A stretch of DNA of 64,000 nucleotides from Geothrix oryzae (GTDB lineage: Bacteria > Acidobacteriota > Holophagae > Holophagales > Holophagaceae). The notes under the pieces were generated by a model. That model saw nothing but the letters and a program-made list of their open reading frames with translations, was not told the origin of the DNA and did no database searches. The translations under genes were made by a program, and so were the position numbers. Each line of letters starts with the position of its first letter. Positions within the stretch are counted from its first letter, which is position 1. Below, in pieces: positions 28,518-50,976 of the stretch. The stretch spans positions 1,798,001 through 1,862,000 of the forward strand of contig NZ_AP027079.1 of assembly GCF_030295385.1 (NCBI RefSeq). Direction: 5' to 3'.

Positions 28518-29269
28518 CCGGTGTACCCCCTCACGAGCGACCCGACGATGAGGTACCAGCCGTCCACGAGCACGAACAGGAGCACCTTGAAGGGCAGCGA
28601 GATCACCACGGGCGGCAGCATCATCATGCCCATGCTCAGCAGGATGCTCGCCACCACCATGTCCACCACCAGGAAGGGCAGGAAGATCATGAAGCCGATT
28701 TCGAAGGCGGTCTTCAGCTCGCTGATGAGGAAAGCCGGCAGCAGGCATTCCATGGGCACATCGGCCTTGGTCCTGGGCGCCTGGGCCTTGGCGATGCGGA
28801 GGAACAGCGCCAGATCCTTCTTGCGGGTGTGGCGCAGCATGAACACCTTCATGGGCGCCGCCGTGCGGTCCAGGGCCTGATCCGTCGTCAGCTCGTTGCG
28901 CTGCAGGGGCTGCAGCACCGTGGCGTTAATCTCCCGAGCCGTGGGCGCCATGATGAAGAAGGTCAGCACCAGCGACAGGCTGATGAGCACCTGGTTCGAC
29001 GGCGTCTGCTGGGTGCCGAGGCCCTGCCGGAGGAAATGCATGACCACCACGATGCGGGTGAAGCTGGTGGCGGTCATGAGGATGGTCGGCGCCATGGTGA
29101 GGATGGTCAGCAGCAGCACCGCCTGCAGGCTGGAGCTGAGGGCCGGGCCCGAGGGCGTCTTGCCGAAATCCACTGTCAGGGAGGGCAAGGGGGCCGGCTG
29201 CTGCGCGCAGAGGCTCAGCCCGGCCAGCAGCAGGAAGGCGACGGGAAGCCAGCGGAGGAGGCGCTTCAC
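28514..29269 (-). CDS. fliP: Flagellar biosynthesis protein FliP
   Basis: 251 residues. It has a cleavable N-terminal signal peptide (about 1-22, ending LSLCAQ), then four membrane segments. Family blocks ILMTATSFTRIVVVMHFLRQGLGTQQ and the C-terminal MVVASILLSMGMMMLPP are clear. Five FliP copies form the core ring of the export gate. It overlaps fliO upstream and fliQ downstream by 4 bases each. Confidence 0.95.
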   Translation of the reverse strand: MKRLLRWLPVAFLLLAGLSLCAQQPAPLPSLTVDFGKTPSGPALSSSLQAVLLLTILTMAPTILMTATSFTRIVVVMHFLRQGLGTQQTPSNQVLISLSLVLTFFIMAPTAREINATVLQPLQRNELTTDQALDRTAAPMKVFMLRHTRKKDLALFLRIAKAQAPRTKADVPMECLLPAFLISELKTAFEIGFMIFLPFLVVDMVVASILLSMGMMMLPPVVISLPFKVLLFVLVDGWYLIVGSLVRGYTG

Positions 29270-48467: not shown

Positions 48468-48624
48468 GCCAAGCCTCCGGTGCGATAATAGTGATAAGCG
48501 CCGCCCCGTTTCCACGGTGGAGCCCTCCTGGACATGGACGACCGTCACGGTCCCAGTCGTGCTGGTCTTCAGCTCGTTCTGCATCCTCTTGGTATCGCCT
48601 TTGGCGATACGCAAGGCCTCCCCC
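48468..48624 (-). repeat. 157-bp tandem repeat, distal decayed copy of the biotin-carrier gene 3' end
   Basis: Second extra copy of the last 38 codons of the adjacent biotin-carrier gene plus a spacer. The frame still reads MQNELKTSTTGTVTVVHVQEG and then shifts after VETG, so it is a decayed fragment. The spacer (about 48586-48624) is identical to that of the nearer copy and contains the hairpin GTATCGCC-TTT-GGCGATAC at 48592-48610. The biotin-accepting Lys is not included. Confidence 0.85.
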
Positions 48625-48781
48625 TCAGGCTTCGGGCGCCACGACGGTGATGAGCGCAGCTCCCGTCTCCACGGTGCCGCCCTCCTGGACATGGACGACC
48701 GTCACGATCCCGGTGGTGCTGGTCTTCAGCTCGTTCTGCATCCTCTTGGTATCGCCTTTGGCGATACGCAAGGCCTCCCCC
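48625..48781 (-). repeat. 157-bp tandem repeat, proximal intact copy of the biotin-carrier gene 3' end
   Basis: First extra copy, directly downstream of the real gene. It differs from the real 3' end at only about 3 of 119 bases and retains an intact 38-codon frame from MQNEL to VVAPEA with its own TGA. The copy begins immediately after the codon for the biotinylated Lys (MEAMK-M). The spacer hairpin GTATCGCC-TTT-GGCGATAC is at 48749-48767. The 157-bp period is not a multiple of 3, so it does not extend the carrier protein. Confidence 0.88.
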
Positions 48782-49306
48782 TTAGGCTTCGGGTGCCACG
48801 ACGGTGATGAGCGCAGCTCCCGTCTCCACGGTGGCGCCCTCCTGGACATGGACGACCGTCACGATCCCGGTGGTGCTGGTCTTCAGCTCGTTCTGCATCT
48901 TCATGGCCTCCATGACGAGGAGGGTCTGGCCCTCCTGAACGGAGTCGCCGACCTTCGCGAGCAATTTCACGATCTTGCCGGGCATGGGCGAAGACAGCAC
49001 GCCGCCCCCGGCCCCGGCGCCGCCGGAACCCGCAAGGAGGGCCCGGCGGGGGTCCACCAGGGCGAATTCGTAGGGGCCATCGTAGAGCATGGCCCGGTAG
49101 GCGTGGGTGTCGGGATCCGGCGACTTGGCCGGGTCCAGGCGCACCTCCACCGAGCGGCCTTCCATGAGGATCGAATAGCAGCCGGGTTCCAGTTCCAGGA
49201 TATCGATGGGATGGCTCACGCCCTCCCAGACCAGCGTCGTCGCGCCGTCCTGGCGGATGAGTTCCACCTCATGGGATTCCTTGCCGAGGATCAGGGTCCG
49301 TTTCAC
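48782..49306 (-). CDS. Biotin carboxyl carrier subunit of an acyl-CoA carboxylase
   Basis: 174 residues. The C-terminal biotinyl domain (about 103-174) has SSPMPGKIVKLL and the biotin-accepting Lys136 in VMEAMKMQNE. The N-terminal ~90 residues (VKRTLILGKESHEVEL...) resemble the linker/BT region of propionyl- or methylcrotonyl-CoA carboxylase alpha subunits, here split off as a separate protein. I chose GTG 49306, with GGGAG six bases upstream and 10 bases after the carboxylase stop. Two partial copies of its 3' end follow it. Confidence 0.88.
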   Translation of the reverse strand: MKRTLILGKESHEVELIRQDGATTLVWEGVSHPIDILELEPGCYSILMEGRSVEVRLDPAKSPDPDTHAYRAMLYDGPYEFALVDPRRALLAGSGGAGAGGGVLSSPMPGKIVKLLAKVGDSVQEGQTLLVMEAMKMQNELKTSTTGIVTVVHVQEGATVETGAALITVVAPEA

Positions 49307-49316
49307 GCGCGTCTCC

Positions 49317-50810
49317 CTACAACCGGTTGAACCGGCCCCAGTGCTTCCAGGCATCGGGTCTCCCCTCGCCCCCGGCGGACGGCTGGGTGGCCCGTCGCTG
49401 TTCGGTTTCGAGTTCGTGCAGCAGCGCCGCCGCCACCGCGAACTTCAGGTCGGGCCCCTGCCCCTTCCGCTTCCAGAAGGGTTTGTCGAGCATGCCCGTG
49501 TGCAGGGCGCCTTCACGGAAGGGCTCGTGCTCCATCAGCGCCTCGTGGAAGGCGATGTTGTGGCGGATGCCGCCGATGCGGTACTCGCCCAGGGCCGCGC
49601 GCATGCGCTCGATGGCCTCCAGTCGCGTGGGCCCCCAGGTGCTGAGTTTGCTGATCATGGGGTCGTAGAACATGGGCACTTCGGCCCCTTCGTAGACGCC
49701 GCCGTCATCGCGTACATTGCGTCCGCTGGGCGTGCGCAGGAAGGTGATCTTCCCGGGGCTCGGCATGAAGTTCTTGTCGGGGTCCTCGGCGTAGACGCGG
49801 CACTCCATGGCCCAGCCGTTGAGGGGGATCTCCTCCTGGGTCATGGGCAGCTTCTCGCCGCGGGCCACGAGGATCTGCCACTTCACCAGGTCCAGGCCCG
49901 TGATCCACTCCGTGACGGGATGCTCCACCTGGAGGCGGGTGTTCATCTCCAGGAAGTAGAAGTTGCGGTCCGCGTCCGCCAGGAACTCCACGGTGCCCGC
50001 GCCCACATAGTTCACGGCCCGGGCCACCTTGAGGGCGGCTTCCCCCATGGCCTTGCGCATCTCCGGCGTCACATGGGGGCTCGGGGCCTCCTCGATCACC
50101 TTCTGATGGCGGCGCTGCACGGAGCACTCGCGCTCATGCAGATAGACATGGTTGCCGTGGGTATCGGAGAAGATCTGGATCTCGATGTGGCGCGGCTGGA
50201 CGATGGCCTTCTCCACATAGACGCTGTCGTCGCCAAAGCTGGACAGCGCCTCGCCGCGCGCCCGCGCCAGCGAGGAGGTGAACTCCTCGGGCTTGAGCAC
50301 CAGGCGCATGCCCTTGCCGCCCCCGCCCATGGCGGCCTTGAGCATCACGGGGAAGCCGATCTTCTGGGAGGCGACCAGCAGCTCATCGTCGGCCATGGTC
50401 TCCTGAATGCCCGGCACCACGGGGCAACCTGCGGCGATGGCCACCTCACGGGCGGCGGTCTTCGATCCCATGCTCACGATGCATTCGGGACGGGGCCCGA
50501 TGAAGGTGATGCCCGCGGCCTCGAAAGCCCTGGCGGCTTCAGCGTTCTCTGAGAGGAAGCCGTAGCCCGGATGCACCGCGTCGGCGCCGCTGCGCTTGCA
50601 GACATCCAGGATCTTCTCCAGCACCAGGTAGCTCTCCCGGGCCGCCGCGGGACCGATGAAGTAGGCCTCATCCGCCATGCGCACATGCAGGGCGCCGCGG
50701 TCGGCCTCGGAATAGACGGCCACCGTGGGGATGCCCATCTCGCGGCAGGTGCGGATCACGCGGATCGCAATCTCCCCGCGGTTCGCAATCAGGATCTTGG
50801 TCACGGACAT
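49317..50810 (-). CDS. Biotin carboxylase subunit of an acyl-CoA carboxylase
   Basis: 497 residues, ATP-grasp enzyme that carboxylates biotin using bicarbonate and ATP. Seen: KILIANRGEIAIRVIRTCREMG, the glycine-rich AAMGGGGKGMRLV, the catalytic EMNTRLQVEHPVTEWITG, and HRRHQKVIEEAPSP. About 50 residues longer than AccC and followed by a stand-alone carrier, it resembles the split alpha subunit of propionyl/acetyl-CoA carboxylases. No carboxyltransferase gene is adjacent. AGGTGAG precedes ATG 50810 and overlaps the stop of an upstream small frame. Confidence 0.92.
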   Translation of the reverse strand: MSVTKILIANRGEIAIRVIRTCREMGIPTVAVYSEADRGALHVRMADEAYFIGPAAARESYLVLEKILDVCKRSGADAVHPGYGFLSENAEAARAFEAAGITFIGPRPECIVSMGSKTAAREVAIAAGCPVVPGIQETMADDELLVASQKIGFPVMLKAAMGGGGKGMRLVLKPEEFTSSLARARGEALSSFGDDSVYVEKAIVQPRHIEIQIFSDTHGNHVYLHERECSVQRRHQKVIEEAPSPHVTPEMRKAMGEAALKVARAVNYVGAGTVEFLADADRNFYFLEMNTRLQVEHPVTEWITGLDLVKWQILVARGEKLPMTQEEIPLNGWAMECRVYAEDPDKNFMPSPGKITFLRTPSGRNVRDDGGVYEGAEVPMFYDPMISKLSTWGPTRLEAIERMRAALGEYRIGGIRHNIAFHEALMEHEPFREGALHTGMLDKPFWKRKGQGPDLKFAVAAALLHELETEQRRATQPSAGGEGRPDAWKHWGRFNRL

Positions 50811-50814
50811 GGGC

Positions 50815-50955
50815 TCACCTTTGCTCAATGGTGCTCGATCGCTGGCCTGCGCGGGGACCTGACCCCGATCGCTTCGCTCCCGCTCCCTCGCTGCGCTCGA
50901 TCACAGAGGGGTCATCATCCCCCCGATTGGCAACGAGGATCTTGGTCACGGTCAT
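50815..50955 (-). pseudogene. 46-codon upstream frame starting like the biotin carboxylase
   Basis: Begins MTVTKILVANRG, matching MSVTKILIANRG of the carboxylase at 10 of 12 residues, with mostly third-base differences at DNA level. It then diverges into DDDPSVIERSEGAG... and stops at TGA 50815-50817, four bases before the carboxylase ATG. GAGGT lies upstream of its ATG. Either a remnant of a duplicated or paralogous carboxylase start, or a functioning leader peptide coupled to translation of the carboxylase. Confidence 0.6.
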
Positions 50956-50976
50956 GGTTGGACCTCGGAATCGGGC

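Follow-up and report, generated by a model that had tools for sequence, protein, structure and literature searches.

Why should a small reading frame directly upstream of a biotin carboxylase gene open with almost the same 12 residues as the carboxylase itself? The question is raised by a 64,000-nucleotide stretch of the Geothrix oryzae genome (contig NZ_AP027079.1, positions 1,798,001 to 1,862,000; hereafter the window), where a sequence-only reading had proposed either a leader peptide translationally coupled to the carboxylase gene, accC, or the remnant of a paralogous carboxylase whose body had been deleted. We consider it highly probable that the leader is the native accC start, severed after codon 12 by an inserted unit from a family of palindromic elements that leaves the genes it enters whole. 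The features at the locus are:

50815..50955, minus strand: leader reading frame of 46 codons, made up of the native start, the hairpin element, a spacer and a TGA four bases before the accC ATG
49317..50810, minus strand: accC, biotin carboxylase subunit, intact (ORF; Pfam Biotin_carb_N, CPSase_L_D2, Biotin_carb_C)
50773..50812, minus strand: inner, gene-attached copy of the 40-nt start repeat (repeat family D2)
50918..50957, minus strand: outer copy of the accC start, native and truncated, which the conserved 5' flank adjoins without a break
50851..50916, minus strand: hairpin element (covariance model R1, 68.5 bits, E 1.8e-11; this copy is among the 45 used for the model)
50811..50850 (bounds approximate), minus strand: R-spacer, from the element to the accC ATG, carrying a new ribosome site and diverging at the rate of 4-fold sites

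The small frame is indeed real, as had been claimed: it encodes 46 aa on the minus strand (50815-50955), begins MTVTKILVANRG in resemblance to the accC start, and has a ribosome site of its own, CGAGGT, upstream of its ATG, with CCGAGGTCCAACC preceding that ATG at 50955. Its TGA (50815-50817) lies inside AAAGGTGAGCCCATG and is followed by GCCC and then by the accC ATG at 50810. Six of the first 12 codons differ between leader and accC, four synonymously and two not (S/T and I/V), and these 12 accC codons are the inner copy of a duplicated edge, a 40-nt direct repeat (50773-50812 versus 50918-50957) of 85% identity. A scan of the window for local direct repeats returned five pairs, among which the accC-start pair ranked third; two triplet-shuffled windows yielded no pairs, and a chance origin of the repeat is thus excluded. 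The only other pair of note in the window is a 30-nt direct repeat (28944-28973), its copies 144 nt apart and 87% identical. Between the two accC starts lies a GC-rich palindromic stretch, in which TGACCCC..GGGGTCA is nested in GGGGxx..GTCCCC. No Pfam family matched the 46-aa product. Beyond what had been noticed earlier, the remainder of the frame is the hairpin element, and accB, in the same operon, likewise has a duplicated 3' end.

To place the repeat in its evolutionary setting, we read the region upstream of accC in 47 genomes of the genus, of which 34 could be judged and 13 were left unjudged. The start-hairpin-start arrangement was found in 23 of the 34 (G024 being counted on a partial view, as its contig begins inside the arrangement) and a single start in 11. 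The earlier reading had held that relatives lacking the sequence, together with no ribosome occupancy, would point to random debris, and as to the relatives the outcome is mixed, with presence in two thirds or so of the judgeable genomes (23/34) and absence from the rest (11/34). In those 11 genomes the single start has the same 5' flank as the outer, truncated start of the insert-bearing genomes; the flank CATCATGCCCGA..GAGGTCCA.CC stands before the outer copy here and before the single start in relatives without the insert. It follows that the native start is the truncated one, and that the unit inserted at the inner site consists of hairpin, spacer and inner start. The break falls after codon 12 in 18 genomes and after about codon 25, with different outer sequences, in five. 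Seven genomes carry tandem units at accC (G020, G044, G046, G047, G050, G054 and G055); the contigs of G044 and G047 end within the array, and one array unit of G050 has lost its hairpin between GGGG runs. A deleted paralogue would account for the similarity of the first 12 residues, but we give it practically no chance: insert-free relatives have one gene start, no second carboxylase stands at the locus in any relative read, the leader is continuous with the 5' flank of insert-free relatives, the unit is repeated in tandem elsewhere, the break always lies at the hairpin, and the same layout recurs at many unrelated genes.

The accC hairpin (G000:C1:1848851-1848916, G000 being the genome of the window) belongs to a dispersed family. 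A pattern derived from other hairpin copies found 37 sites in 18 of the 47 genomes, and the reversed control pattern found none. The covariance model R1, built from 45 copies, matched at least 46 of the 47 genus genomes (111 candidates scored per genome), at least 11 of 30 genomes from other genera of the same family (56 scored per genome) and none of 16 genomes from two other families of the class (likewise 56), the absences in these searches being soft. Four R1 matches lie in the window's own genome, one of them at accC, two at a distance of 157 bp from each other and a fourth elsewhere; the impression from exact searching that the hairpin is unique in that genome was discarded, the family having emerged in relatives and through the covariance model. 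At G000:C1:1376684-1376902 (L161), two element copies 157 bp apart are accompanied by a third copy of the flanking edge.

Most element copies consist of two hairpins. In the apical hairpin, compensatory changes, affecting both sides of a pair, are seen at seven of eight pairs when 22 copies of one kind, most of which lie by tRNA genes, are compared; among seven protein-gene copies, both sides have changed at five of eight. The accC copy is without the long apical hairpin, and the window's hairpin taken alone folded no better than shuffles (z -0.71). No match of the element to an Rfam family rose above the gathering score, which only tRNA passed. Short, dispersed, non-coding and accompanied by direct repeats, the element resembles MITEs in these respects. 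Two candidate mobilisers were rejected: IS1634 is absent from 39 of the 47 genomes, including G000, and has terminal repeats that differ from the element, and Y1 transposases, which a REP/RAYT reading would call for, occur in only five of the 47 and not in G000. Between these two types of transposase, checked across the 47 genomes, no transposase or recombinase could be linked to the element.

For an analysis of the flanks, we took 101 of the 109 model matches, leaving out two array copies (L164 and L165) and the six weakest. A direct repeat with a score of at least 18 flanks 83 of the 101 elements, a score that none of 122 control positions taken from these loci attained. The outer repeat ends no more than 10 nt from the element in 66 of the 83 and no more than 4 nt from it in 58; in those 66, repeats are 29-199 bp long (median 69) with a median identity of 0.95. 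Element copies are not independent, several being the same site in different species. Clear duplication is missing at 18 of the 101 elements, several of them by tRNA genes. Fourteen targets, at 5' and 3' edges, were identified with Pfam: biotin carboxylase, a UvrA-like ATPase (ABC_tran only), a XerD-like integrase, RecR, electron-transfer flavoprotein alpha, semialdehyde dehydrogenase, YebC, MoaE, iron/manganese superoxide dismutase, a UPF0004 (MiaB-like) protein, an AAA_assoc_C protein, an alpha/beta hydrolase, a CTP_transf_like (NadD-like) protein and a histidine-kinase-like ATPase. A tRNA-Arg gene is also a target (ARAGORN), and oxidoreductase, YbgC-like and FabF-like targets were named by eye, the first two giving no Pfam match on the short edges searched.

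The arrangement has a fixed polarity. Seen from the conserved left end of the element, the truncated native edge lies to the left and the gene body to the right; the body was attached to the inner copy in 48 cases, to the outer in none and to both in one, with ten cases unclear and seven too short. At the tRNA-Arg loci L103, L071, L094 and L164, the promoter region and 5' part are repeated in units of 152-170 bp with a hairpin; the array in G046 is 100% identical over two units, and several contigs break off within arrays of this type. A mobile element could be dispensed with if replication slippage at GC-rich palindromes had made simple tandem duplications; this would fit arrays that expand unit by unit and the hairpin-loss variant of G050, bounded as it is by GGGG runs. 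However, slippage does not explain how one 65-nt element came to stand at many unrelated genes with a single polarity, and we regard it as very improbable. To the eye, the R-spacer seemed strikingly complementary to the target sequence just outside the element. Over 22 targets, this complementarity was only modest (40 of 20000 permutations equalled or exceeded the observed sum) and clear in about five (miaB, the oxidoreductase, recR, the AAA_assoc_C gene and the HATPase gene); some high scores (nadD, the ybgC-like gene and L317) fall within the copied edge or another hairpin, and the complementarity was dropped as evidence.

Could the duplicated edges simply be target-site duplications? A mobile element with DDE chemistry might generate very long and variable ones, with selection keeping the insertions near gene edges and the R-spacer representing the outer part of the duplication after divergence. 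Indeed, the observed repeats (29-199 bp, median 69) lie inside the range of 8-514 bp given for IS1549/IS1634 in the excerpt of PMC2266710 used here. Yet at the miaB locus L168 the leader DNA next to the repeat differs completely between the copies, the coding parts of which are 100% identical, and such a sharp transition at start codons argues against the simple form of this explanation. Orientation relative to the gene is also fixed, which symmetric insertion would not yield, and IS1634 itself is missing from most hosts and has unrelated ends. Since the non-coding ends of the duplication are unlike at old sites, a plain long target duplication is not demonstrated, and we judge this explanation unlikely.

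At the hydrolase gene, whose locus was read in 30 of the 47 genomes, filled and empty alleles occur within one species, the insert being present in G044 and absent from G000. The G000 start matches the truncated G044 copy nearly letter for letter, and the inner G044 copy has a different tip, resembling the inner tips of G006 and G018. The site is filled in G005 too, and probably in G008, where the first copy ends like the truncated one and the spacing is longer. Replacement of gene ends through site-specific recombination, as practised by phages and islands, with the hairpin as the residue of such an element, would produce the same topology, in which a supplied end is received and the old end pushed outward; the supplied hydrolase tip, common to several species and unlike the native tip, is in keeping with it. 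Against this, every target has its own duplicated sequence, which implies that there is no common attachment site, and the same hairpin core stands at no fewer than 14 unrelated genes. We think such replacement quite improbable.

Conservation relative to 4-fold sites was used for the hydrolase gene and accC only, with recR, yebC, the AAA_assoc gene and the miaB locus L329 left out. Element and spacer at the hydrolase gene are 88-97% identical among four species, against 46-78% at 4-fold sites in that gene. At accC, the hairpin is 94% identical, and 4-fold sites and spacer both stand at 64% (medians, 12 genomes, 66 genome pairs). Because the hairpin is conserved above 4-fold sites, it must be either constrained in place or recently spread; at accC constraint fits better, since the spacer diverges freely.

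We then asked whether the displaced start is coupled to the gene, as the other half of the sequence-only reading had it. Of the 17 genomes with a complete leader broken at codon 12 (type A), 14 have the leader stop 3-4 nt ahead of the accC ATG, and the remaining three have it at -10, +10 and +14; TGA, TAA and TAG all occur across the 17. When the spacer was shuffled, a stop at -10..+4 arose in 731 of 20000 trials, and when it was mutated to about 64% identity such a stop was kept in 4551 of 20000. Codons of the leader and the accC start show 45 synonymous and 19 other changes across genomes, G010 being excluded from these totals (its start is masked by N, and its counts of 1 and 12 were dropped). 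The stop positions and the spacer trials support selection for translational coupling at accC, with shared ancestry as a caveat, so that coupling retains the backing of a conserved stop position through comparison and the paralogue offered beside it falls away. Overlap of stop and start is also found at other 5' targets, namely the hydrolase (4/4), nadD (1/1), five of six MiaB-like loci (the sixth is an array in which the real start was not found) and L317, and early leader stops occur at the UvrA-like, YbgC-like and oxidoreductase genes and at accC type B. Selection for coupling at the hydrolase, nadD and miaB was rejected, as simulation showed that the ATGA overlap follows from reading phase alone.

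Might the leader then serve to regulate accC, as a leader peptide or attenuator whose control structure is the hairpin and whose mimicry was selected for its function? Retention of frame and stop in 14 of 17 genomes, the hairpin conserved well above 4-fold sites and the excess of synonymous changes (45 versus 19) would all suit such a role. However, the arrangement is missing from 11 of the 34 judgeable relatives, the same element occurs at 3' ends and tRNA genes where a leader cannot act, and the likeness of mimic and gene is what duplication and conversion would be expected to give. A regulatory origin is in our view improbable.

Downstream of accC, the partner gene has a displaced edge of its own:

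48782..49306, minus strand: accB-like biotin carboxyl carrier gene, downstream of accC (Pfam Biotin_lipoyl; GTG start at 49306 picked by eye)
48505..48818, minus strand: two extra copies of the accB 3' end in 157-bp units (repeat family D1), with a different small hairpin at the joints
48585..48612, minus strand: second-family hairpin (GCGTATCGCC..GGCGATACC), outer copy (G000:C1:1846585-1846612)
48742..48769, minus strand: second-family hairpin, inner copy (G000:C1:1846742-1846769)

The accB 3' end is thus present three times in the window, and many relatives have similar repeats. The second hairpin family was found in all 47 genus genomes, with no control matches, and a repeat score of at least 18 accompanied 20 of the 34 copies examined. 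With the accC start displaced and the accB end repeated, both outer ends of the accC-accB pair therefore bear displaced edges. In G006 (contig C7, 98252-98622), the second hairpin recurs six times at a spacing of 68-71 bp as an array of hairpin units. Upstream of accB at L020, L023 and other loci, there are small frames overlapping the accB start, some with GC-rich hairpins.

Taken as an insertion that severs and restores the gene edge, the accC locus can be given a probable history. From the outside towards the gene, the inserted unit comprises a GC-rich hairpin of about 66 nt and a spacer that brings a new ribosome site; then follow the first 12 codons for the second time, now attached to the body of the gene. 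The hairpin belongs to a set of short non-coding palindromic elements of this bacterial family that sit in protein-coding or tRNA genes, within about 30-200 bp of an edge, the accompanying duplication leaving the target gene whole. The displaced accC start is probably still translated: ribosomes would load at the old site, cross the hairpin without leaving the frame, terminate four bases short of the new ATG and reinitiate at it. We infer that the element moves and that the edge is duplicated when it inserts; the likeliest route would be copying that begins at a break or fork at the inner site and re-enters upstream. Insertions elsewhere would be lost because they break the gene, with selection for intact genes acting as the filter, and slippage or conversion may later keep the duplicate copies alike. 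More tentatively, and at rather less than even chances in our estimate, we propose a "home and rescue" element: tiny non-coding DNA that enters conserved housekeeping and tRNA genes close to one end and in every case carries in, or gives rise to, a functional copy of the edge that it severs. It would spread across species at shared sites, and the starts that it displaces would become coupled leader frames.

Inserts of the kind seen at accC offer a way for DNA to sit harmlessly inside the conserved genes of a compact bacterial genome. They account for certain otherwise odd short frames and for partial repeats of genes, constitute a source of coupled leader frames, and predict unstable arrays at housekeeping genes that break short-read assemblies. 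The filled and empty alleles within one species make the insertion mechanism testable.

Several known systems share parts of this picture. Some integrative elements, among them e14 in icd and the islands in dusA, replace the end of a gene: they displace the native edge and supply a substitute, using an integrase and one attachment site. The displaced and supplied edges are the same here, but the element is about 100 bp long, carries no gene and has many targets. At E. coli tyrT, 178-bp repeats carry the 3' end of the tRNA. These too are tandem units of a gene end plus other sequence, at one E. coli locus as opposed to the two families and many genes described here. Rickettsia palindromic elements (RPEs) end up within the mature host protein. 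They are described as short palindromic elements in unrelated genes, read in frame (PMC10969869, in the portion consulted). In contrast, the present element lies outside the intact gene, the normal product being kept through the edge copy and the element not being retained in it as an RPE is, and it targets 3' ends and tRNA genes as well. Prokaryotic MITEs are, in the same portion of PMC10969869, short, non-coding, structured, dispersed and flanked by direct repeats, whereas our element is GC-rich, lies inside gene edges, has repeats of gene sequence of 29-199 bp and a fixed polarity, and no partner transposase was found for it. Rescue of a gene edge in one polarity is not described there for either MITEs or RPEs, and in the open-access literature we found no description of an element with gene-edge rescue. 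The nearest published precedent, through their long and variable direct repeats (8-514 bp), is IS1549/IS1634, for which no mechanistic model had been proposed by 2008 according to the excerpted text of PMC2266710; these are, however, full transposons, with terminal repeats unrelated to the palindromic element at accC.
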